Shown here in pieces: positions 11,392 through 35,193 of a stretch of 38,671 nucleotides of DNA. Every line of letters starts with the position of its first letter. Position 1 is the first letter of the stretch. The notes under the pieces are model-generated. The model made no database searches and was not told the origin of the DNA. It worked only from the letters and a program-made list of their open reading frames with translations. A program made the translations under genes and the position numbers. The DNA comes from a virus, in IMG/VR virus record IMGVR_UViG_3300024302_000023, positions 1 to 38,671 of that record; one strand, given 5' to 3'.

Positions 11392-11925
11392 TTATACCTT
11401 TTTTGCTGTGAATCCTTTGCTTTTTCCATATTTTATGAGATTTCCCTGGTCTACACCACGCGCCCCTGACCACTCCCTTAGGTTGACAATGACGTAGGGT
11501 TCTCCACCAGGTTCTGATACCAAGAATTGTTTAGAATTTCCTGCGCCAATAGCGTCTTTTCTCTCTTGGCTGTGTTTCTTGCCTCTATGTTTATCAGCAA
11601 TCTTGTCCCGGGTTTCTTGTGATACTGGTTTGCCCCGGTGCTTTTCCCTGTTATTTTCAAGTTGCTCCTCGGTCCAGATTCCGGTCTTCCCCTTATTCCA
11701 GGGTATGCTACCAGTCATGCGCTCTTTATGTGCGGCACGGTGCGCTTCTGCATTTGTGATTTGACCAGATAAACATTTCCAAGCAATACGGTCATATTCG
11801 TTACCATATTCTTCATAGAGTTTTCTATGCGCTTCGGCATGTTCTGGTATGGTTAGGAGAATGAGATTCGGTGGATCATCGGTGCCACCTGAGTGTCTCG
11901 GTATTATATGATGTTTGTGTTTCAT
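11392..11925 (-). CDS. HNH homing endonuclease, 177 aa
   Basis: The N-terminus KHKHHIIPRHSGGTDDPPNL contains the HH of the HNH motif; LTIPEHAEAH supplies the rest. The central repeats (WNKGKTGIWTEEQLENNREKH, then GKPVSQETRDKIADKHRGKKHS) are NUMOD3 DNA-binding modules. The C-terminus (FLVSEPGGEPYVIVNLREW) resembles a NUMOD1-type recognition helix. It lies after the gp23 terminator. The ATG stands only five bases after a TATAAATA box, so late mRNA may be leaderless or nearly so. Confidence 0.85.
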   Translation of the reverse strand: MKHKHHIIPRHSGGTDDPPNLILLTIPEHAEAHRKLYEEYGNEYDRIAWKCLSGQITNAEAHRAAHKERMTGSIPWNKGKTGIWTEEQLENNREKHRGKPVSQETRDKIADKHRGKKHSQERKDAIGAGNSKQFLVSEPGGEPYVIVNLREWSGARGVDQGNLIKYGKSKGFTAKKV

Positions 11926-12044: not shown

Positions 12045-13406
12045 TCACATGAGATTGTCGACCGCAATAATTCTGTAATAAGAGTTCTTATTAGCGAACG
12101 ATACAACACCATCGGCTGCCGAAGTCGCATATGGGTTAGCAACAAGGCCATACCTGGTCTTGAATCCGATTTTGGGCTGGAACGTATTCTCGCCAATAGC
12201 GCGAACCATTTGTAGTGGCACGTATGGGCAATAGAACATACCGGCATCAAAAGGACTTGAACCTTTATAACCAACAGTAGCATACTGGATACCAGATGTG
12301 GCTGCAAAGTAAGGGTCGATATAAACCTTGAACTGACCGTTCAGGTTACCAACGAAGGTGTTGCCTGTGTCGTCAGAGGTGATGCTGTTGTTCAAAGCAG
12401 ATGATGTATCAAGAACACCAGCCATGTTCAATGCAGAGGCAACGTCACTTGAACAAACAAGCATGTTACCTTTACCACGACGAGTAGCCTTGGCAATTGC
12501 GTTGGCTTCGCGCTCCAATTGGAACATCAAGCCCTTGAACTTTTCAACAGACCAACGTCCGTTTGCGTCTTGGTCAAGATCGAATGTACCAGCAGAAGCG
12601 ACGTTTTCTTGGGCGCCGATTGTAGCAGAGATATTGATCTTACGAACCATTTCGCGGTTGATTTCAGCCAGGATTTCTGTTGACAGAATGTTAGACAATT
12701 CTGTTTCAGCATCCAAACCATGAACGGCTTTCAAGTCTTGAGCCAATTCCATGGTGTATTCAGCTTTAAGCGCACGACTAAGGGCTGTCACGGTGATTTT
12801 CTCGATTGAGAAAGCCATTTCAGGGAAGTCATGTGTTGTTGCTTCGCCAAGTCTTTCAGCAAGTGCTGTTGACATAGCGGTAGCGGCTGTGTAAGTGTCA
12901 CCGTCGACAGGTGTCGCAACAGGTGAAGAACCAAGTTGGTTGTTAGCAACAAGAGCCATCGCAGCATTACCAGCAGCAGCGGCTGAGAATGTTGTGTTTG
13001 CTTCGTTATGAAGTGCTTCAGTACCAGTTTGGTTGGTGTAGCGTGAACGCATAGCAAAGATAAGTCCGGTTGGACCAGTCATAGGCTGAACGCCCATCAT
13101 ATCAAAAGCCATTAGGTTCGGTGCAGCACGGCGAAGTAGTGAAATCAACACTGGATCGAAAATGTCGATAGCGCCGTCGCCAGCAGTAGAAGAAGAAGCA
13201 CCCATGTTGTTCGTTGGTGCAGCTTCCAATAGAGATTGTGGTCCACGGTAGCCACCATTGCCAGCGGCATTGGTACGGGCATCCGTTTCTTGGTTCTCTA
13301 GCAGAGTTGCGATAACCGAGCGTTTGTGAGCATCCTCGATCTTAGGTAGATCGGGGTGTTCTATTACTGGCTGCCACTTCTCTTGTAGTTCGTGATTGAG
13401 CAACAT
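12045..13406 (-). CDS. gp23: Major capsid protein gp23
   Basis: HK97-fold major head protein of T4-like phages. The segments LLRRAAPNLMAFDMMGVQPMT (shortened) and the later GKGNMLVCSSDVASAL and FYCPYVPLQMVRAIGE are typical of gp23. At 453 aa it is shorter than T4 gp23 (521 aa). The first about 61 residues should be the propeptide removed by gp21: SLLE at 58-61 fits the L-x-E cleavage rule, leaving a mature N-terminus at AAPTNN. A late promoter lies 31 bases upstream and a terminator follows directly, so it can be made as a monocistronic, abundant mRNA. Confidence 0.97.
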   Translation of the reverse strand: MLLNHELQEKWQPVIEHPDLPKIEDAHKRSVIATLLENQETDARTNAAGNGGYRGPQSLLEAAPTNNMGASSSTAGDGAIDIFDPVLISLLRRAAPNLMAFDMMGVQPMTGPTGLIFAMRSRYTNQTGTEALHNEANTTFSAAAAGNAAMALVANNQLGSSPVATPVDGDTYTAATAMSTALAERLGEATTHDFPEMAFSIEKITVTALSRALKAEYTMELAQDLKAVHGLDAETELSNILSTEILAEINREMVRKINISATIGAQENVASAGTFDLDQDANGRWSVEKFKGLMFQLEREANAIAKATRRGKGNMLVCSSDVASALNMAGVLDTSSALNNSITSDDTGNTFVGNLNGQFKVYIDPYFAATSGIQYATVGYKGSSPFDAGMFYCPYVPLQMVRAIGENTFQPKIGFKTRYGLVANPYATSAADGVVSFANKNSYYRIIAVDNLM

Positions 13407-13447: not shown

Positions 13448-14587
13448 TTAGCGTTTTGTAGTGCGAGAAATGGCGTCCATATACGGGCTCATCGCTGGGT
13501 CCGCTTTTCGGGCTTCTGATTCGCTACCGTCGTCAATAGCTTCGTCAGATACTTCTTCACTTAGAACGACAACTTTGCCATCTGTTGGGAAATAACTTTC
13601 CTTCAGAGTAACAACTTTGTCACGATAATCATCTTCACTATCGAAATCAACGCCTTCGGCGAGTGCTTTCAATTTTTCTGCCTGAGTGTCAACGAGACCT
13701 TCAGTCACTTCCGCAACAATTTCAGCCATTGTCAGAGTGTCTTTTTCCTGACGAAGGTCGATAGAAGCATTCAATGCTTCATCTAATTGCGCTTCTAGAT
13801 CTTGGTTACGAAGGGCCAATTCCTCAACAACGTCAACCTTTTCTTCGGGTACGTCAATGAAATGGTCTTCCAACAAGCCGTGTAGGCCAGTAATGAAAGA
13901 TTCGGCTAGTTCGTTACGAATACCAGAATCGATAGCTAGTTCGTTTTCTGATACCCATTCTTCGCAAACATATTCAAGATATGTATCAACTTTTTGAGCC
14001 ATTTCCGCCACAAGAGCATCACTGGTTTCAGTAAGTTCTGCTTCAGCCGCTTCTGCAATTTGCTGGGCAACTTCGTTAGCCTTAGCAACAACAGCGGCTT
14101 CAAAGATAGTAGTTGCAGTGGCTTTGAATTCCTCGGAAAGGTCTTCATCACCGAACATTGCAGCAACGTCGGCTGCAAGGTCAACATCTTCTTTGGTTAC
14201 TTTTTTGAAAGGGTTTTCTTTTTTCTCGGACTTTTTATCGTCGTCGTCTTCATCGTCGTCATCATCTTCATCGTCGGCTTCAACGAGAGAACCCATGACG
14301 CCATCGAACATTGATTCAAGTTCGAGGGTGGATTTGTCTTTCATGCTGTCAATAACAGCATTAATCATATCCGCTTTAGTCAATTCTTCTTCGACTTCTT
14401 CGTTTTTCAACGCTTCTTTAGCAGAAATGGTTTCTTGGCTTTGGGCGCCTTTTTTCTTCTTGCCGTCAGCTTTTGGATCTTCAGCGTTCTTACTTTTGTC
14501 AGAATCGCTAATTTCGGAGCCCTTCACAACAGGCGTGCCAGAATGGTCAGCCTTGAATTCGTCCAATTGTTCATCTTTGATAGACAT
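13448..14587 (-). CDS. gp22: Prohead core scaffolding protein gp22
   Basis: Major scaffold on which the gp23 shell assembles; it is later degraded by gp21. It is 379 aa, very acidic, with an Asp/Glu run at about residues 105-125, and long helical segments rich in Ala, Glu and Leu. The position between gp21 and gp23 is that of T4 gene 22 (269 aa); this protein is longer, mostly in the acidic N-terminal half. The C-terminus ends basic (AISRTTKR), as is usual for gp22. An AAGGAG ribosome site and a late promoter precede the ATG. Confidence 0.92.
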   Translation of the reverse strand: MSIKDEQLDEFKADHSGTPVVKGSEISDSDKSKNAEDPKADGKKKKGAQSQETISAKEALKNEEVEEELTKADMINAVIDSMKDKSTLELESMFDGVMGSLVEADDEDDDDDEDDDDKKSEKKENPFKKVTKEDVDLAADVAAMFGDEDLSEEFKATATTIFEAAVVAKANEVAQQIAEAAEAELTETSDALVAEMAQKVDTYLEYVCEEWVSENELAIDSGIRNELAESFITGLHGLLEDHFIDVPEEKVDVVEELALRNQDLEAQLDEALNASIDLRQEKDTLTMAEIVAEVTEGLVDTQAEKLKALAEGVDFDSEDDYRDKVVTLKESYFPTDGKVVVLSEEVSDEAIDDGSESEARKADPAMSPYMDAISRTTKR

Positions 14588-14620: not shown

Positions 14621-14628
14621 TATTTATA
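14621..14628 (-). promoter_or_regulatory. Late promoter TATAAATA for gp22
   Basis: Exact consensus on the minus strand, 34 bases upstream of the gp22 ATG and overlapping the end of the gp21 gene just before its stop codon. Confidence 0.8.
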
Positions 14629-14631
14629 AAA

Positions 14632-15282
14632 TTAGAGTCTTGAAAGAAAATCCTGAAAAACAGCAAGTTTGCTTTCCTCAAGTTCTCTCCTAGACGCCTT
14701 TTGAATCACTTGTTGGTGACGGGCAATATCAACTTCTTTGATGATACCGTTTGCCCATACCCATTCTCTACCTTCCATAATACCGTCAACGTAAGCATCG
14801 GGTGCTGAAGGGTCTGCCACAATGTCAGCCGGAGTAGCCAGATGAAAATCACCTTGTACTTCGTTGACGCCCTGGACTTGTTTTAGTGAACCCATGCCAC
14901 GGCTGGATACACCAAGATTGCCACCGTCTTTGATAAGACCCTTGACAATATCACCCATTGGGGTGCTTGAAATTTTTGCTTTACCAATGAAGTTATTACC
15001 TTCTTTGACAAGCGACGTAATGCGGTGTGACGCACGGTCGAGGTTGATGGTCGGTCCTGTAGGATGACCAAGTTCGCCCCATGCTCTACCCTTATCGACA
15101 TTTTCAGTCACATAACGGGCAACTTCACGTTCCAGGATCGCGCTTGGATATTTACGACCATTACGGTTAGCGACTTCAGACTGCATAAACACTCCATTGA
15201 TATATAGAGTTTTCTCACCAGTCGCTTCGTTCAATTCCTCAAACGGTTTAACGTCTTCAGACATTTCTGTAATTAGTTTCAT
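14632..15282 (-). CDS. gp21: Prohead maturation protease gp21
   Basis: Serine protease of the herpesvirus-assemblin-like prohead protease clan, which processes scaffold and capsid proteins. The ATG at 15282 (MKLITEMSEDVKPFEELNEA) has AAAGGAAAAA upstream; in-frame starts further up lie inside the preceding gene. GELGHPTGP puts the catalytic His at residue 73, and NLGVSSRGMGS puts the Ser at about 126-127. It is 216 aa against 212 in T4 gp21. It probably cuts after L-x-E/I-x-E, as seen in gp23 and in the 460-aa core protein. Confidence 0.93.
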   Translation of the reverse strand: MKLITEMSEDVKPFEELNEATGEKTLYINGVFMQSEVANRNGRKYPSAILEREVARYVTENVDKGRAWGELGHPTGPTINLDRASHRITSLVKEGNNFIGKAKISSTPMGDIVKGLIKDGGNLGVSSRGMGSLKQVQGVNEVQGDFHLATPADIVADPSAPDAYVDGIMEGREWVWANGIIKEVDIARHQQVIQKASRRELEESKLAVFQDFLSRL

Positions 15283-15292
15283 TGTTTTTCCT

Positions 15293-16072
15293 TTATGCGG
15301 GACCGCTAGTTGGGAATTCTTCTGTTGCGATTGTGTAGTTGCCTGTATAACGAGCCACACCTTTTGTTATTCTCAATTCATCCATCCAACCAGAAAGTGG
15401 GCCATCTGGACCTACTATTGAATCCCAGTTATCACCAATGCGTGTTGTGTGGTTACCGTTTGTGTAGTTATTACTATCAGCAAACGAACCTACTTCAACA
15501 CCATCTACAAACAGATATGATGTACCACCTGTTCTAGTCCAAGCAATAGCATACCATACACCAGTTGTTAAACCAGCGCCTGTTGAACCATATTCTGTAC
15601 CGTTATAGAAGTGAATTTCATTTCTGTATGCTTCCGCAGCCGCCGGACCAAAAATATCAATTGCCCATGGTGCTGCGCTGTTAGTTGATCTAAAGTCTAG
15701 CAGGTTGATGCCTGCTGTACCAAAGGCATTCAGTTTAACTCTCATTTCAACAGTTAAATCACCAGTTCCAAATGTCATTTCAGTTCCAGCATTTATAGAA
15801 ACATAATGATCGTGAGTGCCTGGTAAGATAAGGGACGCTGTACCGAATACTTTTTCGGCTGTATCAAGTTCTGCGGTGCCAACGGCAGCTAATGTTTTTA
15901 AGCCTGTTTCATCAACAAACGTGGTTGAAGCGTCTGTACCATTGAATTTAGAATATAGTACAACATTATCCCAATAAGGATCAGTAGCAGGCGCACCTCC
16001 ACCACCAGAGAACCTGGAAGCAGGATTCACGATAGCCATATTAGTAAGAGATATGCCAGCACCCAATTTCAT
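15293..16072 (-). CDS. LamG/concanavalin-like lectin protein, putative head spike
   Basis: After a short N-terminal segment (MKLGAGISLTNMAIVNPASR) and a Gly run, residues about 33-250 form one LamG-type jelly roll. It opens DNVVLYSKFNG, continues with DLTVEMRVKLN and GVWYAIAWTRTGGTSYLFVDG, and ends GWMDELRITKGVARYTGNY. Such domains bind glycans. It sits in the head-gene block between the prohead core gene and gp21, directly after the spike-base-like gene, with a 3-base gap. I infer that the short N-terminus anchors it on the spike base and the lectin domain points outward to bind host polysaccharide. It could instead be a free decoration protein. Confidence 0.75.
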   Translation of the reverse strand: MKLGAGISLTNMAIVNPASRFSGGGGAPATDPYWDNVVLYSKFNGTDASTTFVDETGLKTLAAVGTAELDTAEKVFGTASLILPGTHDHYVSINAGTEMTFGTGDLTVEMRVKLNAFGTAGINLLDFRSTNSAAPWAIDIFGPAAAEAYRNEIHFYNGTEYGSTGAGLTTGVWYAIAWTRTGGTSYLFVDGVEVGSFADSNNYTNGNHTTRIGDNWDSIVGPDGPLSGWMDELRITKGVARYTGNYTIATEEFPTSGPA

Positions 16073-16075
16073 GGT

Positions 16076-16354
16076 TTAGTACATTCCGATTACGCTGTTG
16101 GCTGTTGAGTTAGTCCACACTTTACGGACGCGCAAAGGCAGAACAGTACCAGCTGGAATAGCGGTAAATGTAACGGTGTTTCCTGAAGCCATACCTGCAA
16201 GTTCAACAACAAGAGTACCAGTCTCACCAACATAAACCGAACGGGTCGTATGTGTGGTGTTTGCTGTGTTACTTGATGTTATAGCATAGGAATGCGCCGC
16301 AGGACTATCTAGGTCCGTATAGAAATTATTGAATTTATCGGTTTGATTAGGCAT
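16076..16354 (-). CDS. Head spike base protein (RcGTA Rcc01079-like), 92 aa
   Basis: The pattern DLDSPAAHSYAITSSNTANT, then HTTRSVYVGETGTLVVELAG, TVTFTAIPAGTVLPLRVRKVW and a C-terminal NSVIGMY is that of the spike base family first known from Rhodobacter gene transfer agent (Rcc01079). In that particle it holds a capsid spike that binds the capsular polysaccharide. The fold is a small all-beta domain. The adjacent LamG gene would then be the spike tip. Recognition is from the sequence pattern alone and should be confirmed by a profile search. Confidence 0.75.
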   Translation of the reverse strand: MPNQTDKFNNFYTDLDSPAAHSYAITSSNTANTTHTTRSVYVGETGTLVVELAGMASGNTVTFTAIPAGTVLPLRVRKVWTNSTANSVIGMY

Positions 16355-16357
16355 GAT

Positions 16358-17740
16358 TTACCCCACTGCTTTCAGAATTGCGTCTTCGTTATGTCCATCT
16401 TTTTGTAGGGTTTTCATAATGGCTTCATCACTTTTACCCTTGCCCCTCAAGCGTTTGACTTCTCTTTGTGCAAATTCTAAGGACGATTTTTTGAGAACCT
16501 TCATCATTCCGGCGCTCTGCTTATCAGCGTTTTTTTTAGAAAGGGCTTCGTCAATAAAACTACCGAAAGATTCGAGACCCTCTTTACGAGTTTCTTTGTT
16601 CTTGGCTTTCAATGCTTTCTTGGCTGCGTCTTCTGCATCATCTACAGATTTTTCAACACCGTCAGCCGCTTTATGAACATCACGGATGCCTCTCTTGGCA
16701 CCTTTAGCAGCCAGAACGGCTTTACCAGCGTCGGAAACTTCATCAAGTTCAACTTCTTCTTTAACACCAGAAGTGATAATATCAAACGCTTTTTTAGAAG
16801 CGGCCTCTTGGCTCATACCTTTTTTAACAAATTCCTTTGTCATTTCAATATGGCGCTTGATGCTGTTTTCAATCGCTTTACTACCACCGGCTCTTGGGCG
16901 ATTAGCTTTGATTTCATCAAGTTCAACTTCCTCTTTGATGCTTGCAACAGCCTTCCAAAACTTAGGGTTACCTGTCAGTTTAGAAATGACTTGTACCACA
17001 CGCTTTTTGATTTGGTCTGCGTTATCAGGCGCAAAGGAACCGAACATGAAATCGTCTTCAAATGGTCTGGAACCACGACTAAAGATATGGATGATCGAAT
17101 TCCAGTAATTTGTTTCTTCTTTGTCTTTGATATGCTTCTTGGCAAACGCCTTCATTTGTTTACCGATTTCCATATAAGCCTTGGCTTGGTCAGATTTGTT
17201 GAGCATCTTACCTTGAGCAGCGGCGAAATAAGGAATCGCTTTTAGTTGTAGTGCGCCTTCAGCCAATTCAGTTTCTTCGTTTTCAATCAGATTATAATAG
17301 TCGATACCTTTAGCAGCCTTCGCGTCATAACCACTAATGAACTTTTTGACCTTTGCGGGATCATCTTTGATAGTAACACCATCTGGTCCTTTGGACCGAC
17401 CCATGCGATAGGTAAATTTAGCATTTAGACCTTTGGCTTTTGCTGCCTTCAACATTTCTTCTGGGTCAAAATCAAAGTTTTCTTGATCTGCATTGAATTC
17501 ATATTTCTTAGCTTCACCCAATTCAGTTTCTTCAGCATGAACAGAAGACCGAGCGCCTGTTGCTTTGCCTTTGAAAACCTCGTCACCCGCAGTTGGGTGC
17601 TTAGTCATATCAGCCAGCTTCTTGCCCTTTTTGAGCGAATTAGCGGCTTTGACTTCTGGATTTTCAGGCTCCATTTCCTGTGGGTTTGCCTCGGGTACCT
17701 CTTGAAGGTCTCGGCGCATTTGTCTAAATGATTTACTCAT
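16358..17740 (-). CDS. Large prohead core/internal head protein with repeated protease sites (gp68 position)
   Basis: The 460-aa, Lys/Glu-rich protein occupies the T4 gene 68 position between gp67 and gp21 but is about three times longer than gp68 (141 aa). The heptad EE(T/V)EL(G/A/D)E occurs four times, at residues 70-76, 155-161, 270-276 and 328-334. Each matches the L-x-E rule of gp21-type proteases and separates folded-looking segments. I infer a core protein cut into several internal peptides during head maturation. The start overlaps the end of the 59-aa gp67-like gene (ATGAGTAA). One segment (YWNSIIHIFSRGSRPFEDDF) looks globular. Confidence 0.75.
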   Translation of the reverse strand: MSKSFRQMRRDLQEVPEANPQEMEPENPEVKAANSLKKGKKLADMTKHPTAGDEVFKGKATGARSSVHAEETELGEAKKYEFNADQENFDFDPEEMLKAAKAKGLNAKFTYRMGRSKGPDGVTIKDDPAKVKKFISGYDAKAAKGIDYYNLIENEETELAEGALQLKAIPYFAAAQGKMLNKSDQAKAYMEIGKQMKAFAKKHIKDKEETNYWNSIIHIFSRGSRPFEDDFMFGSFAPDNADQIKKRVVQVISKLTGNPKFWKAVASIKEEVELDEIKANRPRAGGSKAIENSIKRHIEMTKEFVKKGMSQEAASKKAFDIITSGVKEEVELDEVSDAGKAVLAAKGAKRGIRDVHKAADGVEKSVDDAEDAAKKALKAKNKETRKEGLESFGSFIDEALSKKNADKQSAGMMKVLKKSSLEFAQREVKRLRGKGKSDEAIMKTLQKDGHNEDAILKAVG

Positions 17741-17930: not shown

Positions 17931-17938
17931 TATTTATA
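17931..17938 (-). promoter_or_regulatory. Late promoter TATAAATA for the gp67-like gene and core genes
   Basis: Exact match on the minus strand in the short gap between the frame-broken structural gene and the gp67-like gene, 19 bases before the ATG at 17912. Confidence 0.75.
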
Positions 17939-18417: not shown

Positions 18418-20034
18418 TCACTTCTTTGGCTCTGGCTCCGGTGCGCCAGGTAACTGACGGTCTTCCTCGTCTGGAAGTTGCTCTATAGGTTCTTCGCGTG
18501 TAGCCGCGTCTGGTCGTCCAGAGAAAGCACCGAAGTTTGTGTCACCAGTTTCTTCTGGATCTACTCCTTCCGCTTCATCCTCTTTCATAGCCTTAGCCAA
18601 TTCTTCGATTTCTTCATCAGTCTGGCGAAGAATATTCTTTTTGACCCACTCAAGAGAATAGTAACGACCAACATAGGCGTCAACATCATTCAAGATGGTC
18701 ATGCGTTCGCGCAAGATTTCCTGGTTCTTTGATTCAGCAAAGTGGTTATCTTCACGGAAGTCATAAAAGATATCCTCTTTGATGATATTCCATGTTGCTT
18801 TGTCTGTGATACCCTTGAGAATTAGTTGGGTTTCAAGAAAATCGTCAAACATTTCGGCAAACTGCATACGCAATCTGTTGATAAACTTTGAGAATTTCAA
18901 TTCGTCACGGGTAATTTCACTTGCACGACCAAGATTAAATGCGCCGTCTGCTTCCATACGAGAGATAGGTACGTTCAAGGCCTTGTAAAATTTGTTTTTG
19001 AAGAATTCAACATCCTCAATTTGACCCAAGTTCTCACCACCGGGTAGTGTAGAAATCTCTGTTCCTTTGCCACCTTCACGACGAGGCAACCAGAAATCTT
19101 CCATCATAGTCTGGAATTTACGGTCGTCTTTGATTTCACCAGTCGAGGCGTCATAGACCAGTTTGTTCTTATGCTTGACCATCATATCTTTGAGATATTG
19201 TTCCGCCTTCATCTTCGGCAGGTTACCAACGTCAATGTAGAAAATGCGACGTTCGGGTGCGCGAGAGATACGGTAAATGACCAATGAGTCTTCCATCCAA
19301 CGCATCTGGTTCCAAATCTTTAGAGCCTTATTCAAATGCGAAAGGATGATGGTGTTTCGTTCGTTGATAATACCGGAGTGAACATAGGTAATCGAATCTT
19401 TAGCGATACGAATACCCTCGTTCATGTTACTGGCGATGCCACGTTCGTTGTATAGGTAGAATTCTTTATATGACGGTGCAATAGAAACAACAGGTCTGTT
19501 AGTGTCCTTCGGTGCAATCTGCTTACGAACCTTCTTGATTTTACGAGGGTCGATATAGCGCAATTCCAGAATGCCCTGCCTTGGCTTCTTTACGTCAATC
19601 ATCTTGTGGTAATACAAACGACCGTCTACGTACCAGCGTTTGAAAATATCATAAGCCTTGTTGTTGAAATCCATCAACTTGAGAATCTGTTCAAATTCTT
19701 CGGTGATTTTCTTTTTGATAGCCTCTGGCTGTTCCAGTTTGTCTAACTTGATTTCAACAGGAGACTTGTAGTTCTCCATTATGATCGCTTCGTTTACGAT
19801 ATCATCAATGGCTCTTTCACCCTCAGGTGATAAAGCAAGTTCTCTGTATTTTGTGATAAGTTGCGCTTCGTTTTTTGAAGTCGCGTCCATATCCAAATAT
19901 GTACCGAAGACGCCATTTTCCGCAACCGTCATAGCCGCGTCGTGGTTAGCCGGAGCGGTGAACGATTGAATGTTCTCTCGCTTTTTGTCTTCTTTTTCTA
20001 CACGGCCAATTTGATAGCCGAACAACTGAATCAT
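18418..20034 (-). CDS. gp20: Portal vertex protein gp20
   Basis: Dodecameric head portal through which DNA is packaged and to which neck proteins bind. The 538-aa sequence (T4 gp20 is 524) opens MIQLFGYQIGRVEKEDKKRE and includes the family segments DGRLYYHKMIDVKKPRQGI, LRYIDPRKIKKVRK, SRAPERRIFYIDVGNLPKMK and NVPISRMEADGAFNLGRAS. The C-terminal 60 residues are acidic and proline-rich. The ATG has ATAGGAAAG upstream. A CTAAATA box stands 31 bases upstream in place of TATAAATA. Confidence 0.96.
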   Translation of the reverse strand: MIQLFGYQIGRVEKEDKKRENIQSFTAPANHDAAMTVAENGVFGTYLDMDATSKNEAQLITKYRELALSPEGERAIDDIVNEAIIMENYKSPVEIKLDKLEQPEAIKKKITEEFEQILKLMDFNNKAYDIFKRWYVDGRLYYHKMIDVKKPRQGILELRYIDPRKIKKVRKQIAPKDTNRPVVSIAPSYKEFYLYNERGIASNMNEGIRIAKDSITYVHSGIINERNTIILSHLNKALKIWNQMRWMEDSLVIYRISRAPERRIFYIDVGNLPKMKAEQYLKDMMVKHKNKLVYDASTGEIKDDRKFQTMMEDFWLPRREGGKGTEISTLPGGENLGQIEDVEFFKNKFYKALNVPISRMEADGAFNLGRASEITRDELKFSKFINRLRMQFAEMFDDFLETQLILKGITDKATWNIIKEDIFYDFREDNHFAESKNQEILRERMTILNDVDAYVGRYYSLEWVKKNILRQTDEEIEELAKAMKEDEAEGVDPEETGDTNFGAFSGRPDAATREEPIEQLPDEEDRQLPGAPEPEPKK

Positions 20035-20064
20035 GGCAACATCTTTCCTATTTCATCTACTGAC

Positions 20065-20071
20065 TATTTAG
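20065..20071 (-). promoter_or_regulatory. Possible variant late promoter CTAAATA for portal gp20
   Basis: On the minus strand CTAAATA lies 31 bases upstream of the gp20 ATG, the same distance as the consensus box at gp23. It differs from TATAAATA in the first bases and overlaps codons of the endonuclease remnant, so chance is possible. Confidence 0.35.
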
Positions 20072-20261
20072 TAGTTTTCTCTGGGCGTGCCATGCTTTCA
20101 TAGATTCACTCCGTTTCCGCCGGGTTTCTTCTGAATGAATATAGCCTTTGAACATAGATCCGTTTTTTCTAGCCAGGTCTCTATGAAAATCGGTAGATTT
20201 TGATATACTCAAATTTTTACGGTGTTCACTAGAATATTTTCTACCCCTCATAAGCAATAGT

Positions 20262-20291
20262 GCGGGTGGGTGTTCAAGCACCGCGACCCGC
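20262..20291. other. GC-rich hairpin between gp19 and the endonuclease remnant
   Basis: GCGGGT (20262-20267) pairs with ACCCGC (20286-20291), and an inner GGTG (20269-20272) pairs with CACC (20279-20282) around a six-base loop, with a bulge of one base on one side and three on the other. On the plus strand it is followed by ATTTTATTTTAG, like a terminator. On the minus strand it forms just inside the remnant's first codons and lacks a T-run. Confidence 0.45.
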
Positions 20292-20303
20292 ATTTTATTT
20301 TAG

Positions 20304-20949: not shown

Positions 20950-21711
20950 ATGAAATATACCTACTTGATAGGCTGGAAAGAAAAGAATGTCTGGTACTAT
21001 GGTGTACGCTATGCCCGTGGCTGCAAACCAGAAGACTTGTTCACCAGCTATTTCACCTCATCAAAATATGTCCATGAATGTATGAGATCCTGGGGTCTGC
21101 CCGACGTTATTCAGGTACGAAAGACATTTGAGAAACGTCATAATGCCCTCGTATGGGAGCAGAAAGTCCTGCGCCGGATGCAGGTGTTGAACGAAACGAA
21201 ATGGCTCAACAAAAACATTTCGGGCGGAATTGCCTTTGATGATGTAATCCGCAAGAAAATGTCTCTGCGAAAACTGGGGCGTATCTGGGTGTATAATGAA
21301 GACGGTAAAATTATGATAGACAAAGACCTTGAATCATATTACCTGAGTCAGGGATATAAGAAGGGCCATGGTCAAAGCCAGAAGGGTGAGAAAAACAATA
21401 TGTACGGCAAAAAGCATAGCGCCGAGTCGAAGGCTAAAATAGGCAAGACTAATAGCCGTTCGACATTGACAGAAGAAGGCCGGAAAGTGAAAGCGGAATT
21501 CACTCGCAACAATAATCCAATGGATAATCCTGATATTAGAGCGAAGCATAGGGAAGCCACGAAAGCCTCTGGCACCAGTTCTCGTAAAGTCACCGATGGC
21601 TATAAAGAATACTCATCAATTCGTAGTGCCAATGAAGACTACCCAGAGGTGAAATATCAAACCTTGTATTCTTGGGTTGTAGGACAAAAAAATGGGTGGA
21701 ACTATTGCTAG
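20950..21711 (+). CDS. GIY-YIG-type homing endonuclease, 253 aa, antisense to virion genes
   Basis: The N-terminus KYTYLIGWKEKNVWYYGVR has the two strands of a GIY-YIG domain (here YLI and YYG). The middle holds NUMOD3-like repeats (NNMYGKKHSAESKAKIG and NNPMDNPDIRAKHREA). The end (YKEYSSIRSANEDYPEVKY) resembles a NUMOD1 helix-turn-helix. It lies between gp18 and gp19 in opposite orientation with its own late promoter, so it does not rely on the tail operon. No intron is visible. Confidence 0.82.
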   Translation: MKYTYLIGWKEKNVWYYGVRYARGCKPEDLFTSYFTSSKYVHECMRSWGLPDVIQVRKTFEKRHNALVWEQKVLRRMQVLNETKWLNKNISGGIAFDDVIRKKMSLRKLGRIWVYNEDGKIMIDKDLESYYLSQGYKKGHGQSQKGEKNNMYGKKHSAESKAKIGKTNSRSTLTEEGRKVKAEFTRNNNPMDNPDIRAKHREATKASGTSSRKVTDGYKEYSSIRSANEDYPEVKYQTLYSWVVGQKNGWNYC

Positions 21712-25875: not shown

Positions 25876-26454
25876 TTACAATTCCTCTATAACGGTGACT
25901 TCGCCTTTCAAGCAATCGTCGGGTGTGAATACCATCTTGCCAAGTCCTGCGTTCTTTAGATCCCAACCCAATTCTTTACGAACGGGCTTGTAACATTTAT
26001 AGACCAATTCAGAGCAAGAGAACCGAACATCAGCCGTGTTCCCAAAGTCAAAGTTGTAATCATATGGTACGCCCAGGTAACCGATGGCATCTTCAACAGC
26101 CATTTCGCACCATGAGTGAGACACGTTAGGGCGCACTATAGCCATACGGTCGCAGCGCATCCAATCAACCAGATTGGTGTACTGGACAGCGGGTGTCATG
26201 GCATGAATAACCTTCTCGTCACCGACATAGATTCCAGCATGGGAATATTTGCCAGGAATGAAGAACCCATCAAGGTAGTTGTCATAGCCACGCAGCAAGA
26301 TATCACCGGGACGCAATTGGTCACGCACCGAATAGTAGTCATCGCCCTTGAGTTTGTAAGAGGTTGGGCCTACTGTGAGCCATAGCGGGGTCTTGTACAC
26401 CTTGATATGCGAGAACCATTGAAGGAACTTGGTCTGTATTTTGTATAGGCTCAT
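25876..26454 (-). CDS. Papain-like hydrolase of the YiiX/NlpC-P60 type, 192 aa
   Basis: RPGDILLRG at 48-56, KYSHAGIYVGDEKVIHAM at 69-86 and FSCSELVYKCY at 145-155 are the circularly permuted papain-like arrangement: catalytic His 72 comes first and Cys 147 later. Family members hydrolyse peptide or amide bonds in cell-wall peptides or lipids. No signal peptide or membrane helix is seen, so it may act inside the cell, in the virion or after lysis. The gene lies between the terminase subunits. The start overlaps the preceding 47-aa gene as ATGA. Confidence 0.8.
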   Translation of the reverse strand: MSLYKIQTKFLQWFSHIKVYKTPLWLTVGPTSYKLKGDDYYSVRDQLRPGDILLRGYDNYLDGFFIPGKYSHAGIYVGDEKVIHAMTPAVQYTNLVDWMRCDRMAIVRPNVSHSWCEMAVEDAIGYLGVPYDYNFDFGNTADVRFSCSELVYKCYKPVRKELGWDLKNAGLGKMVFTPDDCLKGEVTVIEEL

Positions 26455-28766: not shown

Positions 28767-29553
28767 TTTCGCTAAAGTCAATAATGTTGTCGTCATAATT
28801 GGTTGTTGTGAAATAGGTGTTATTAGCCTGAGCATCGGTGTTCACAGGTAGATAATCTTCCTTGATAAATGAACCACCATCTTCTAGCAATATCTTGTCA
28901 CCTGTTTCAAGCAACATTTCATAAGCAAGGGCGTTTCCAGAATAATCGGTTTCTATTTGATCAATGGTCGCATTACCAGTACTAATAGTTTCGTGGCTAT
29001 ACTCAAATAGGGTACACCTCAGATCATAGGTGTATAGACGACCAAACGAATAGAAAACTTCTTCATGTTCAACATGGTCGATCTGGAAAATCTTGCCGTT
29101 CAATGGGAAGTAGATTAGATCTCCTTCAAAGGGTCTGCCGAGAGACAAAGCAAAGTTGTCGCCGTTGGCATCCTCAAGTAAAAACTCGTCGCCTGTCTCT
29201 AAGAGAACATTATAGCCTTGGCCTTCTGTAAGCAATTTCTCTGATTGAAATTGTTCGAACCTTTTGACGGCTACTGTGAAGGTTATCTCGTCGCGTATCT
29301 CAAGACCAAACTTTGATAGTAGGTCACCCTCACCTTCAAAGCCCTCAACATTTTTGATATAGACTTCGATAGTCGCGGCTACATTGAAAGCCGAAAGCGT
29401 ATCTTCACCAAACAACAAATCTTCTTTGACAAGGGTACGCGGCAAGTATTGAACATCATGCCCATACATTTTTATGGACTCGATTATCAAGTCCTCTGCC
29501 AACCCCTGTTCTGAGGCGAAGGCATAGTTGTTGAAATAACTATTTACCGCCAT
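28741..29553 (-). CDS. gp14: Neck protein gp14
   Basis: gp14 with gp13 closes the filled head for tail joining. LIIESIKMYGHDVQYLPRTL then KEDLLFGEDTLSAF, NVEGFEGEGDLLSKFGLEIR and EGDLIYFPLNGKIFQIDHVE are the typical gp14 blocks. It is 270 aa against 256 in T4. The ATG at 29553 lies inside the last codons of the GIY-YIG gene inserted upstream (14-base overlap). Two nearly identical motifs (LLETGDEFLLEDANG and LLETGDKILLEDGGS) indicate a small internal repeat. Confidence 0.94.
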   Translation of the reverse strand: MAVNSYFNNYAFASEQGLAEDLIIESIKMYGHDVQYLPRTLVKEDLLFGEDTLSAFNVAATIEVYIKNVEGFEGEGDLLSKFGLEIRDEITFTVAVKRFEQFQSEKLLTEGQGYNVLLETGDEFLLEDANGDNFALSLGRPFEGDLIYFPLNGKIFQIDHVEHEEVFYSFGRLYTYDLRCTLFEYSHETISTGNATIDQIETDYSGNALAYEMLLETGDKILLEDGGSFIKEDYLPVNTDAQANNTYFTTTNYDDNIIDFSEINPFGEAE

Positions 29554-30178
29554 AATCACAAACCCTTTCTACACTGGTGCCTTTACGAGAAATTTTGCCG
29601 CTCTTGGACAGATATTTCAATGTAGTTTTGGGTATATCCAAAAGTTTTGATACCCATTCTAAGGACCATGAATGAAATTCTGTATCTTGGGTTGTTATCT
29701 TATACCAATACTTGGCTCTTGCTTGTGCGGCTTTCGTAGCATGTTCAATACTTTTCGGCACATCTTTGAGTCTTTTCGATAACTGATTTTTTTGTTCTTG
29801 GGAGCCGTTGTATTTACACAGCGGGCTGTTGTCGTAGTAAAGGTTCTTACCTGAAACTGATAATTTCTTTTTGAAATCATCACTTCTTTTCATACCACGA
29901 TTTACACGACCACCAGAGGCATGATTATAGCCAAGGGTCTGTAAATCATATTTTCCTATCCAATATTGTTCTCTATCATCAATAGTAGTTTCATCACATC
30001 TTTCAATCATTTCGCATGTAAAATTATTTACACCATGCTTACGAATAGCATTGTATAATTTGTAATTACAAGAGGTCTTTGAACGTGACACATGACCAGA
30101 CCATCTTTCATCAAGACTTTTTGATGTTTGACCAACGTATTTGATTTCATCAAATAATTTTATTGCGTAAATAATCAT
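29540..30178 (-). CDS. GIY-YIG homing endonuclease, 212 aa, wedged between gp13 and gp14
   Basis: MIIYAIKLFDEIKYVGQTSK is the GIY and YIG strand pair; LDERWSGHVSRS and CDETTIDDREQYWIGKYDL supply the conserved Arg and Glu regions of the nuclease. NUMOD3-like repeats (GGRVNRGMKRSDDFKKKLS) and a helix-turn-helix (LEWVSKLLDIPKTTLKYLSK) follow. ATG at 30178 is favoured over the GTG at 30190 that overlaps the gp13 stop, since GGGTGA is better spaced. It overlaps the gp14 start by 14 bases and has no promoter of its own, so it is read with the neck genes. Confidence 0.85.
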   Translation of the reverse strand: MIIYAIKLFDEIKYVGQTSKSLDERWSGHVSRSKTSCNYKLYNAIRKHGVNNFTCEMIERCDETTIDDREQYWIGKYDLQTLGYNHASGGRVNRGMKRSDDFKKKLSVSGKNLYYDNSPLCKYNGSQEQKNQLSKRLKDVPKSIEHATKAAQARAKYWYKITTQDTEFHSWSLEWVSKLLDIPKTTLKYLSKSGKISRKGTSVERVCDYGGK

Positions 30179-30186
30179 TATATATT

Positions 30187-30930
30187 TCACCCAGACATAT
30201 CAAACACTGGAAGGCTGTAAGAGGTAATCATTTCTTCTTCTAGTTCCTTGAGCCGTGTGTTGGCTTCATCCCACAATTCCTGACCGTTAAAGGTCACGCC
30301 ACCGGGTAGTTGTACGCCCGTGAATTTCTTCAGGTTAGCACCCCATTGACGTTTGAAAAGTTGTGTGGTATATTCAAGCAACCAACGGTCGTTCCATACG
30401 TCTGTGTAGGTGTCTGGGTCAATCAACTGGTAACCGTCGATGATAACATAATTGCCTACAGTTACCTTGTTCCAATCCATATCAAGATTCACTCGGTCGG
30501 TATGACGATTGAAACGAATGGGTTGTTGACCTGTAAGAATTTCCTGTATCATTGCGATATGCTGTTGAGCGATCACGTAATGCGTCATTTGAACATTAGC
30601 GGCGTCAAAAACATCATTCAAGGAAAACTGATAGTTCAGGTTGAACATATTGCTTGATGAAGAAATTGCGCTACCGATAGGGAAAATGCGTGTAACACCA
30701 ACGATATCTTCATTAAGTGAAATATATTTGTTGGTTACGTCTGTGGCTGTGACTTGGTGAGCGACATAAACTTGTTGTGTACCATCAAAGTGGTAATCCC
30801 TGTAATACTGAAGGGATTCATCAATGCGGTCGTCAAGTTGGTCATTATCAACATTTATGTCAATAACGGGCTTGCCTAAGTTGCGAAGGCAATACTCTCT
30901 GTGTTGTTCACGGCTTGTAGGTACTGCCAT
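30187..30930 (-). CDS. gp13: Neck protein gp13
   Basis: Head-completion protein that binds the portal with gp14. The start AVPTSREQHREYCLRNLGKP and the blocks VDNDQLDDRIDESLQYYRDY, MTHYVIAQQHIAMIQEIL and DVWNDRWLLEYTTQLFKRQW are typical of gp13. It is 247 aa against 309 in T4, as in many distant T4-like phages. AGGAG precedes the ATG and a late promoter stands 28 bases upstream, so the neck-to-terminase block starts here. Confidence 0.95.
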   Translation of the reverse strand: MAVPTSREQHREYCLRNLGKPVIDINVDNDQLDDRIDESLQYYRDYHFDGTQQVYVAHQVTATDVTNKYISLNEDIVGVTRIFPIGSAISSSSNMFNLNYQFSLNDVFDAANVQMTHYVIAQQHIAMIQEILTGQQPIRFNRHTDRVNLDMDWNKVTVGNYVIIDGYQLIDPDTYTDVWNDRWLLEYTTQLFKRQWGANLKKFTGVQLPGGVTFNGQELWDEANTRLKELEEEMITSYSLPVFDMSG

Positions 30931-31284: not shown

Positions 31285-33423
31285 TTACTCTCCTTCTAGT
31301 TCGCCAAAGAATACCACTAAATATCGGTAAACAGAATCTGCTGCTCCAGCGTGAGTGTAGTTATATATCGACGCCTGGCTCGGGTTAGTAACGGCTACGC
31401 CAATGATATTAGCATCATTATCTTCTGACGAACCGGATGCCACATAATAGCCTTTGAAAGGCGTTCCAAAAACAGCCGTGACTGTGGCACTAGCTACAGA
31501 AATACTTTCTATGTTGTGTGAGGCTCTGATTTCAGCCTGAGTCCCGTAAATCCAAGCCTTCGCTTTACCAAGATCAATACCTTCATGTTGAATACCAAGC
31601 CCTTTGACGGTCTCGGTCAATTCACGGAGGCTTTCTGTCGGCATACTGATAGAGGAATCGGTAGCACCAATTGAGAAACGCCCGTTACCCCATAGTTTCA
31701 TATGTTCGAAGGCCGAGGAAGCGCCATCGTCGGCTACGTTGGTATATACGAGTCCATCCCAAATGCCTTTGTCGTCGGTTTGGGTTACAGCGACCTTACC
31801 GGAAACCGGATCAACATCAACGTCCAACACTGCGTCGGTTGTTCCCGATTGCAGCAAGACCTTGGCGGCTGTTTCAAACATACCCTTTTCAGCGTCGTAC
31901 ATGGCACGAATTTGTGCGGCTGATGGGGCTGTTGCTGCTACCCTAATCATAGAAATAGCACCGTTGGCCCACGGATTACCAGCCGCCGCCGTTGCACCAA
32001 TGCCAATACTCTCATTCACAGTCAGTGTCGCTGTAGCGTTAACGATAGTGAAGTCACGTTCTAGCTTGCCATCGACCCATATTTCAGTGTTGGTTGTTCC
32101 ACGCTTAACTGCAACAATCATGTGCCATTCACTGTCAGCAAAAGTGGCTGTTGTAATGTTCTGATCAAACCCTGACCCATCATTAATGATGAAATTCATG
32201 GCACCAGAGGTTTCTGTCCGCAAACCCCAGAGTGGAGTTGTGGCTCCTCGTGTTATGATAGTCTCATAGCCACCTGACGCTGTTAGCTTGAACCAAGCCA
32301 CAATACAGAAGTTTCCAGAGCCCCAATCAAAGTCAGTGTCTGTTGCTCTGGTCAGATAGTTACTTGCACTAAACCCGCTATAAGCCAGCAACTCACCACT
32401 CGCACCGTCTGCGGAGGCCGATGTTACAGTGCCGTTCTCAGTAAGCGTGTTGGCCTTGTAGCTACGATCAGCCGTTGCAGAGTTTGCAAGCCATGCGCCA
32501 CGCACATCCCCGATCATGTAACCAGTGTTGTATGTGCGGTTTATAGCTGCGTTCATATGTGTTTGGAATGATGCTGCGGCGTCCCTTGGGCCATTCAGTT
32601 TGCCAATAGTCAAACCCGCAGCGGCTGCATACGCAATTTCACCTTGGCTACGGGCAGATATTCCGTTGTCTACACCTAAACCATAAACGCCGCCAGTAGT
32701 GGAGTTTGCAGCAGTTCCTGACCAGTTATCAGCAGTCATAGTTTCGATAAGCTGACTTTGGAAGGCTCTGTCACCAGATGTTCCGTCTGAGTAAACAACG
32801 TAGCCGTTAACTATAGCTGATCCGTAGTTTGCCGCAGCGGCTGTCACGCGATCCCAAACATTACCGTCATATTTGATAACACCGAAAGCTGCACCGCTAC
32901 TCATATTATACCCGAAACAAGGCATGTTGCCGCCAGTGCGCGGATCAGAGGGCCAAGTGTCCCAAGTACCCGCACTTACATCTGTAACTGCATTGCTTCC
33001 TAAAGCCGGAGTTGTACTGGTAGACAGTGACCGGGGCCAGCCTACTGTGCGTTCAGCCCAGCTGCCGTCATGTGGGTCTATAATCGTTACCCCGTCTTCT
33101 GAACCGACAATGATGTAGCCCATAGAGGCCGCAATTCCTGTTGGCGTCGCTGCGCCAGTGATCGTAACCGATGCAAGGGCTGTACCACCAACAACATTTG
33201 AATCCGTCGCATCCCAAATTTCAACCGTACTGTCAGCCCCAGCGTCTTTCACTGTGGCGACCATAAGTTTTTTGACGACAGAAAGATTTTGTTTTTCGTC
33301 CCATTGTACGCCATCGCGGGCTGGACCAAAGATAACAGCATCAACATATGTGGCATCGGTATCAACCGCGCCACTGAAAGTACCTGTACCACCACCCTGG
33401 GCAATGTCTAATGCTTTACTCAT
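31285..33423 (-). CDS. LamG-domain tail/receptor-binding protein, 712 aa
   Basis: The start has one copy of a GTGTFSGAV motif, then a beta-propeller-like region (about 30-330: KKLMVATVKDAGADSTVEIW, MGYIIVGSEDGVTIIDP). A LamG domain follows at about 350-515 (SGNFCIVAWFKLTASGG, EWHMIVAVKRGTTNTEIWVDG), then a conserved C-terminal region ending FFGELEGE. It is a clear paralogue of the protein encoded at 36366-38671, which has the same ends and a diverged middle. I infer a trimeric fibre or spike that binds a host glycan. The ATG overlaps the 93-aa gene as ATGA. Confidence 0.78.
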   Translation of the reverse strand: MSKALDIAQGGGTGTFSGAVDTDATYVDAVIFGPARDGVQWDEKQNLSVVKKLMVATVKDAGADSTVEIWDATDSNVVGGTALASVTITGAATPTGIAASMGYIIVGSEDGVTIIDPHDGSWAERTVGWPRSLSTSTTPALGSNAVTDVSAGTWDTWPSDPRTGGNMPCFGYNMSSGAAFGVIKYDGNVWDRVTAAAANYGSAIVNGYVVYSDGTSGDRAFQSQLIETMTADNWSGTAANSTTGGVYGLGVDNGISARSQGEIAYAAAAGLTIGKLNGPRDAAASFQTHMNAAINRTYNTGYMIGDVRGAWLANSATADRSYKANTLTENGTVTSASADGASGELLAYSGFSASNYLTRATDTDFDWGSGNFCIVAWFKLTASGGYETIITRGATTPLWGLRTETSGAMNFIINDGSGFDQNITTATFADSEWHMIVAVKRGTTNTEIWVDGKLERDFTIVNATATLTVNESIGIGATAAAGNPWANGAISMIRVAATAPSAAQIRAMYDAEKGMFETAAKVLLQSGTTDAVLDVDVDPVSGKVAVTQTDDKGIWDGLVYTNVADDGASSAFEHMKLWGNGRFSIGATDSSISMPTESLRELTETVKGLGIQHEGIDLGKAKAWIYGTQAEIRASHNIESISVASATVTAVFGTPFKGYYVASGSSEDNDANIIGVAVTNPSQASIYNYTHAGAADSVYRYLVVFFGELEGE

Positions 33424-33702: not shown

Positions 33703-35193
33703 CTATAGCTCCGCGTCTATTTCAATATAAGTGATACCAGCACCAGCGTTCCGGAATGTCTGCACCAATGCCCCGTTCCCTATCGTTAACCCTGATGTTG
33801 TAAATCGGGGATTACAGTTATCATGGGTTATGTACCAACAGTTGAAGGACGTACAATTATATCCACCACCTTGTTGCAGAACACGCATGTTTGTTATAGC
33901 TGAACATGTAACGGTTGGATTGGTACGTTTCCAAGCAAAGTTTAACTGCCCCTCTAGGTATGTACTGTGTTGAGCAGACCCATCTATCCAAAGCCTATAA
34001 AGACCCTCACTGTCAAACCGTTCGTAATACCGCTGACACTTAGCCAGCGTATCCCCATAACTCTCATGCTCAAAGCTGGTGGCTGCGCTGGCAACTTCCA
34101 GTTTGACGCCTGTCAGGTATACGTTGTTCGCCGTGTTATCCATCAGGTTCTGCTGGTTTGTCGTTGACCTCCAGCCACCGCCAGAAGTCCAAGTATCGGC
34201 AGTGTTTTCATAACCGTTAGATAACAGGGGGAAGCCGATGCTCAGTGCATAGGTATTATCATCAGGCAGTGCGCTACCAGAGGTTTGTGCGGGGAATGTC
34301 ACAGTGAAGTACTCGGCAGTATTCGCCGCCGTGACTGTGAACTCCATAGGGCAGCCATAGTTGTTGTCGTTGTCCACCATGAAAACGACCTGTGTACCAG
34401 CCTTTGGCGACTGCCACCAAAACGAGATCGTAGTTTCTAAAGAGCCAGATGTGCCATGCAATAGATGCTGAACATCCTGCCCTTCAAACTTATATTGGAT
34501 GCCCATGAAATCACTACCAGCCAACGAACTTTCGACTGTGGTGCAGTCCACTTTTAATGCAGATGGAAAACCCGCTGCGGCCATTAAAGCGGGTGATGCC
34601 TCGACAGTTGTAGTAGCGATTGCGTTTGTAGTTTCGACAAATATCTGCCAACGATCTGCTGCGGTGTACTCTGTAGAGGTTATACCTGTAACAGTCCCAC
34701 GCTGGCTGACAGTCATGCCGCCGTTGATGATCAGGTTAGGGTTGTTACCCGTTGGCGCACTCGTTGCACCTGTACCGCCCTGTGCCTCTGACAATGGCGT
34801 AGTCAAACCAGTTAGACTTGTTATATCTGCATTGGCTCCATTAAGAGCATATTTTGCATCAACTTCGGTCTTGGTATAGGTATCTGCTTTCGCATATGAA
34901 TTAGGGTTTGTGACTTCACCAAAGGAAAGAACTTCCAATTTCCAACCGGCGGTCATAGCCGCAAGACCAGTGAAACTTGTACCAGTTGTTGCTGTATAAT
35001 CTTCGTCGTTTAGTTTAACACCGTTGAGTAAGACAAGATAATTGCCTTCGCCCACGGTATATGCAAGAGTATTGCCGTTGTCGTCTGCGCCAGATACTGA
35101 AGTTTGAGCCGCTGCCGCGGTGAATTCATAGAGAACAGCACCCTGATAGTTTTCCCACATTGCGCTAGGTATTGATTGAATGCCTAATCCCAT
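33703..35193 (-). CDS. Tail fibre-type protein, 496 aa
   Basis: The N-terminal about 100 residues form a beta-rich virion-attachment module (NYLVLLNGVKLNDEDYTATT). A short helical segment (YTKTEVDAKYALNG) and the repeat-type motif SEAQGGTGAT follow, both common in tail fibre shafts. The C-terminal about 330 residues open NPNLIINGGMTVSQRGT, a phrase found at the start of many fibre tip domains, and then form a beta-sandwich-like region. The ATG overlaps the stop of the 109-aa gene. Probably the long or side tail fibre distal part. Confidence 0.75.
   Translation of the reverse strand: MGLGIQSIPSAMWENYQGAVLYEFTAAAAQTSVSGADDNGNTLAYTVGEGNYLVLLNGVKLNDEDYTATTGTSFTGLAAMTAGWKLEVLSFGEVTNPNSYAKADTYTKTEVDAKYALNGANADITSLTGLTTPLSEAQGGTGATSAPTGNNPNLIINGGMTVSQRGTVTGITSTEYTAADRWQIFVETTNAIATTTVEASPALMAAAGFPSALKVDCTTVESSLAGSDFMGIQYKFEGQDVQHLLHGTSGSLETTISFWWQSPKAGTQVVFMVDNDNNYGCPMEFTVTAANTAEYFTVTFPAQTSGSALPDDNTYALSIGFPLLSNGYENTADTWTSGGGWRSTTNQQNLMDNTANNVYLTGVKLEVASAATSFEHESYGDTLAKCQRYYERFDSEGLYRLWIDGSAQHSTYLEGQLNFAWKRTNPTVTCSAITNMRVLQQGGGYNCTSFNCWYITHDNCNPRFTTSGLTIGNGALVQTFRNAGAGITYIEIDAEL

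Follow-up and report, generated by a model that had tools for sequence, protein, structure and literature searches.

A 38,671-nt stretch of virus DNA (IMG/VR record IMGVR_UViG_3300024302_000023, positions 1 to 38,671; hereafter the window) carries, inside the head operon of a T4-like phage, a pair of adjacent genes that are likely to encode a capsid-vertex spike of the type known from the gene transfer agent RcGTA, acquired by T4-like phages and used as a swappable host-surface adhesin. The first gene encodes a 92-amino-acid homologue of the RcGTA spike base and the second a 259-amino-acid fibre with a short anchor and a LamG tip. By analogy, we infer a location at the capsid vertices, a 5:1 stoichiometry of base to fibre, a sugar ligand and a role in adsorption. 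The more general proposal, that one T4-like lineage has a head-vertex adhesin locus in which a pentameric socket and plug are conserved and lectin tips are swapped behind the plug, is one that we favour by a narrower measure. The sequence-only reading of the locus had suggested that this phage may bind host polysaccharide through its head, and its interpretation is supported overall.

Gene order and late transcription

The window derives from a T4-like contractile phage, in which homologues of gp17–gp23 in T4 order and T4-type late promoters are all present; its gp23 is 62% identical to that of Pelagibacter phage Mosig. Along the minus strand the order is gp18, gp19 (tail tube), gp20 (portal), two small open reading frames (ORFs), a gene for a 460-amino-acid protein, the base gene, the LamG gene, gp21, gp22 and gp23 (Table 1). 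This agrees with the earlier placement of the pair among prohead core and protease genes, and the position is conserved in other T4-like phages. We checked the ORF coordinates: both genes are on the minus strand, with 3 nt between the base stop and the fibre start, and a 3-nt gap also separates the 460-amino-acid gene from the base gene. The N-terminus alone of the 460-amino-acid protein is retained in two relatives, L110 and L111. The fibre stop is 10 nt ahead of an ATG at 15282, which is the likely start of gp21 rather than the GTG at 15360 in the mechanical ORF list; with this start, gp21 does not overlap the LamG gene.

Table 1 Features of the spike locus and its surroundings in the window
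Feature	Position	Strand	Evidence or remark
gp23, major capsid protein	12045..13406	-	PHROG_138, E = 7.5e-157
gp22, scaffold	13448..14587	-	Pfam T4_CASP, E = 3e-65
Next T4-type late promoter, ahead of gp22, start of next unit	14621..14628	-	
gp21, prohead core protease, 216 aa from ATG	14632..15282	-	Pfam Peptidase_S77, E = 2e-41; PHROG_207
Putative fibre of the spike (259 aa), one LamG domain behind a short N-terminal anchor	15293..16072	-	
Fibre LamG domain (concanavalin A-like); Pfam envelope spans residues 88-237	15362..15811	-	Pfam PF13385 (Laminin_G_3)
Putative fibre anchor/linker, residues 1-26 (MKLGAGISLTNMAIVNPASRFSGGGG), alternating M1/L3/A5/I7/L9	15995..16072	-	
Homologue of spike base (Rcc01079/PHROG_12296 family), 92 aa, predicted to have a jelly roll and an extended N-terminal arm	16076..16354	-	
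460-aa protein, prohead-core-like position, upstream of base	16358..17740	-	
T4-type late promoter TATAAATA	17931..17938	-	Opens unit of 65-aa gene, 460-aa gene, base, fibre and gp21
gp20, portal	18418..20034	-	Pfam Portal_T4, E = 3e-174

The T4-type late promoter TATAAATA occurs at 13 sites within the window, against 1.46 expected. Between the site that opens the unit of the pair and the one that precedes gp22, the minus strand holds no further site; because the former is the last promoter before that of gp22, base and fibre should be expressed late, together with the prohead genes and gp21. Scans of the window for sigma-70 promoters and terminators gave counts no higher than chance. Homing-endonuclease-type genes are dispersed among the head and tail genes (11392-11925, 20057-20293 and 29540-30190, minus strand), and a plus-strand ORF beside gp19 (20950-21711) is homing-endonuclease-like by eye. 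A permuted papain-like amidase of the C92/NlpC-P60 type (25876-26454, minus strand) adjoins the terminase genes.

The base is a homologue of the RcGTA spike base

The 92-amino-acid protein contains the pattern LDSPAA...TTRSVYVGETG...VTFTAIPAGTVLPLRV that had been taken as the mark of a spike base, a claim borne out by a match to PHROG_12296 far beyond chance (E = 9.5e-17). When the protein was compared with all PDB sequences (phmmer), the best match was RcGTA Rcc01079 (6tb9; E = 8.4e-7, residues 6-89 of 92). A profile search against the Rcc01079 family had been set beforehand as a refuting test, and the match was strong: a profile of 28 relatives of the base hit Rcc01079 with E = 1.2e-24 and 8cjz, ‘Spike Base Protein’, with E = 1.1e-9, the latter entry being the mature capsid of the Carin1 bacteriophage. 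The predicted structure agrees. The AlphaFold model (pLDDT 88.7) is all-beta, with residues 1-20 extended and devoid of secondary structure, followed by seven strands. In a Foldseek search with this model, 6tb9 (TM 0.81/0.88) and 8cjz (TM 0.68/0.72) were the sole chains at E ≤ 0.001, and VIA-align ranked 6tb9 (Z 12.8, r.m.s.d. 1.4 Å over 83 residues) and 8cjz (Z 10.8) above the next entry (4.4). The relationship between the base and Rcc01079 is true homology, beyond a shared jelly roll. Asp16 of the window base aligns with Glu12 of the RcGTA base, a residue that acts together with the capsid protein in coordinating a cation; this position is acidic in the bases of phage immuto, RcapNL, L112 and L152, and non-acidic in many other base homologues.

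Relatives of the base were collected with the immuto, ZHS, RcapNL and L112 bases as queries. The window base as a single-sequence query returned identical copies only, and an alignment of five bases was dropped as a query because the sequences were too divergent.

The fibre anchor resembles the RcGTA plug

The neighbour had been described as one LamG domain with a short anchor, and so it appears: it matches PF13385 with E = 1.7e-14 (54.7 bits, against a curated cut-off of 27.6), and in its AlphaFold model residues 1-26 are of low confidence and disordered, with the remainder forming a confident concanavalin-like sandwich. The N-terminus, MKLGAGISL, has a hydrophobic residue or Ala at positions 1, 3, 5, 7 and 9 and resembles the plug of the RcGTA fibre, IALGLGLGL (residues 2-10), which forms a five-point star with (iso)leucines occupying one pocket per base subunit (PMC7296036). 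Anchors of other fibres read MYIGLGISL (immuto gp206), MGLGLGIGLGL (RcapNL_30) and MIGLGLNI (ZHS_9).

The alternating motif is enriched directly behind bases. In a first set of 76 base loci (bases less than 80% identical), 17 of the 113 ORFs beginning immediately behind a base carried an alternating pattern of seven residues close to the N-terminus, as did 37 of 4567 others (odds ratio 22, Fisher p = 2e-15). The enrichment was replicated in 34 further loci found by another query (4/49 versus 16/1856; odds ratio 10, p = 0.001); both p-values are approximate, because the ORFs are not fully independent. A stricter nine-residue plug pattern, tried first, matched 5 of 70 next genes, and the looser seven-residue pattern, adopted afterwards, overlooks several T4-like anchors. 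By the seven-residue pattern the plug is absent from the next gene in 59 of the 76 loci, and a candidate fibre lies away from the next-gene slot in some, as the second gene in L014 and 3.8 kb upstream in L062. Several T4-like relatives have anchors that match in part, without full alternation (MKIGSGVGTT, MKIGLSPGPT), which makes a five-pocket plug less certain in them. A tail-fibre-like protein of 496 amino acids elsewhere in the window (33703-35193, minus strand) starts with MGLGIQSI, a partial likeness to the plug motif that is possibly due to chance.

The module comes and goes, and its tips are exchanged

Base and fibre occur together in at least 13 other T4-like contigs (L112, L143-L153 and L155, found with the L112 base as query), between gp20 and gp21 wherever both flanks are present. 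Their bases are 53-100% identical to one another, and gp23, in the contigs that include it, has 67-82% identity to that of the window. L112, with a portal 67% identical to that of the window, has a base that is 64% identical and in the same place; L110 and L111, the closest relatives by portal (83%), are without the module. Gain and loss of the module are both seen among the portal relatives. When the head regions of the Pelagibacter phages Mosig and HTVC008M, of DLP_6 and Melnitz, and of L114-L121 were searched with the profile, no divergent base was found. The slot before gp21 in L110 and L111 is occupied by an unrelated 115-amino-acid protein (L111:3888-4235), small ORFs likewise precede gp21 in Mosig and HTVC008M, and the slot may serve accessory head proteins in general.

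Most fibre N-termini in the T4-like contigs have in common MK(I/L)G (MQIG in L148) together with a stretch of Thr/Ser and Ile/Val. The tips behind them are of several kinds: LamG in the window and L148, other LamG-type domains in L145, L152 and L155, and tips without a Pfam match in L112 and L149. One case is that of L152 and L155, which come from different samples and share 99.5% identity across 6378 nt, a stretch that runs through the base and as far as fibre codon 25; past this codon the remainder of the fibre and a small following ORF are completely different, and 99% identity resumes shortly before gp21. L148 and L153 have bases that are 95% identical, unrelated fibres and well-conserved flanks. 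L143 and L145 have identical bases, and L143 has a second tip in tandem, which is 97% identical to the tip of L152 despite bases that are only 71% identical and thus points to transfer of tips between lineages. Misassembly is unlikely to be the cause of all of these swaps, because several independent pairs display them. The sugar-binding-type tip of the putative spike is thus exchanged wholesale among close relatives, a pattern that suggests a part for the head itself in choosing what the phage sticks to. The ORF of about 60 amino acids between fibre and gp21 that is swapped along with the tip (L152:7052-7251, L155:7118-7325) could encode a tip-specific chaperone or be a mere passenger.

The main rivals to an adhesin on the vertex are a Hoc-like role unrelated to the host and, secondly, a location on the tail. 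Under the first, the pair would sit at the vertex and bind environmental particles or surfaces, tune dispersal, or decorate or stabilize the vertex. T4 offers a precedent in Hoc, which forms variable head fibres that the phage can do without in the laboratory (PMC10385173), and the absence of the module from the closest portal relative shows that it, too, is dispensable. The contrast with T4 drawn in the sequence-only reading therefore needs qualifying: T4 is indeed without such a vertex spike, but its head does carry Hoc fibres. The spikes of RcGTA, the nearest functional homologue, nevertheless bind the capsule of the recipient (PMC10218006), and replacement of a whole tip behind a conserved anchor is the pattern of receptor-binding tips and would be needless for pure stabilization. 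We regard a role unconnected with the host as unlikely, although it is the strongest of the competing explanations.

Base neighbours are largely packaging and head genes

Base homologues occur in many kinds of phage. A batch of 143 proteins neighbouring bases most often matched PHROGs for the large terminase, the portal, the major head and scaffold proteins, and head-tail proteins; matches to tail proteins were less frequent (a single protein may match several PHROGs in this count). PHROG_12296 and several GenBank records label the family ‘tail fiber protein’, which is probably wrong for most of it, because the neighbours are mostly packaging and head genes.

The label would be apt if the pair were a tail or baseplate appendage and its position in the head operon an accident. 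The window LamG tip does resemble the LamG of cyanophage baseplate proteins, in which the domain is common, and in RcapNL the base/fibre pair adjoins tail and lysis genes. Against this, both solved base homologues (6TB9 and 8CJZ) were modelled within capsid reconstructions, T4-like relatives keep the base between gp20 and gp21 or after gp23, the family-wide neighbours are as just described, and the tail genes of the window phage are elsewhere in the window, away from the pair. A tail location is improbable on this evidence, and a spike on the head remains our preferred reading.

The LamG tip

LamG domains do not universally bind sugars. The Foldseek matches of the LamG model include many lectin-type domains in other proteins, but they reflect a common fold and are therefore uninformative on function. 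LamG alone is also no marker of the module, because its relatives in IMG/VR adjoin bases solely in copies of the window phage. That the tip is an enzyme (a polysaccharide hydrolase or lyase) rather than a lectin is very improbable: the LamG/ConA-like superfamily includes glucanases, as its Pfam name records, but the length and profile suit a bare LamG domain and the best PDB match is accessory domain 4 alone of the arabinanase AbnA (E = 2.7e-9, 20% identity). Two more LamG proteins, of 712 and 730 amino acids (31285-33423 and 36366-38558, minus strand), lie in the neck and tail gene region and are 50% identical along their length, a paralogous pair; together with the fibre, LamG domains are thus found in three proteins of the window phage.

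A proposed spike mechanism

In the mechanism that we propose, the gp23 shell would bear five copies of the 92-amino-acid base at each of its pentameric vertices, and one 259-amino-acid fibre per base pentamer would be plugged in by its alternating hydrophobic N-terminal peptide, with a flexible linker, rich in glycine, to hold the LamG domain outward. Each head would thus carry as many as 11 lectin tips, which could provide weak, multivalent and reversible attachment to a host-surface polysaccharide, and this attachment by the head would precede engagement of the tail fibres. The locus would act as a cassette: recombination would replace the tip but leave base and anchor in place, and the head would thereby come to stick to something else.

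If this is true, head spikes diversify as tail-fibre adhesins do, and first contact or host range is partly set by the capsid. The receptor specificity of T4-like phages has been studied almost solely at the tail, and a swappable head lectin would be a second specificity device. A large family labelled ‘tail fiber protein’ would be tied to capsid spikes, and our data suggest that the head spike of gene transfer agents is part of a widespread mobile module. The pair is present in an isolated phage, immuto, and there are natural phages, otherwise almost identical, that vary chiefly in the tip, which makes the proposal directly testable.

Comparison with known systems

In the open-access literature we found no report of such a spike in T4-like phages. 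Phage tail-fibre adhesins combine a conserved attachment part with tips that are swapped by recombination. Those modular tips sit on the tail, whereas the evidence from the window points to the head. The contractile Agrobacterium phage 7-7-1 has one fibre per pentameric vertex that serves first contact, and its proposed fibre base is the Ig-type linker protein gp122, outside the Rcc01079 family (PMC12796354).

T4 Hoc is alike in being a variable head-displayed fibre, conserved where it binds the capsid and exchangeable in its outer domains. It differs in that its C-terminal domain binds gp23 hexamers; we found no sequence relation between Hoc and the window pair, and the Hoc family was absent from the Pfam and PHROG scan results of base and fibre. 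The Cobetia phage Carin-1 (8CJZ), a marine phage, has the same base fold in a mature capsid reconstruction, but it is a podovirus, and the identity is 22–24%. Closer in kind is the Flavobacterium phage vB_FspM_immuto, an isolated myophage that shares T4-type gp20, gp21 and gp23 with the window phage. Its gp205 is a base of about 40% identity and is followed by gp206 (546 amino acids), the fibre with the alternating anchor given above. The immuto pair lies directly after gp23 instead of before gp21, and the tip of gp206, annotated as tail fiber, is a repeat array with a weak Ig-domain match rather than a LamG domain.

The closest parallel is RcGTA itself (GhsA Rcc01079 and GhsB Rcc01080; 6TB9), in which base pentamers occupy 11 vertices and each takes up a single fibre, bound through its residues 2-10 (PMC7296036); beyond the plug the fibre is flexible, and the spikes bind the recipient’s capsule (PMC7296036, PMC10218006). 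The window pair shares with it a homologous base, an adjacent fibre gene, an alternating hydrophobic anchor and a distal part presumed in both to bind sugar. Unlike that of RcGTA, the window fibre ends in a LamG domain, and the window gp23 is of another family than the RcGTA capsid protein. The spike genes of RcGTA, a gene transfer agent, lie outside its head-tail cluster, whereas the window pair is embedded in the gp20–gp21 head operon of a phage.
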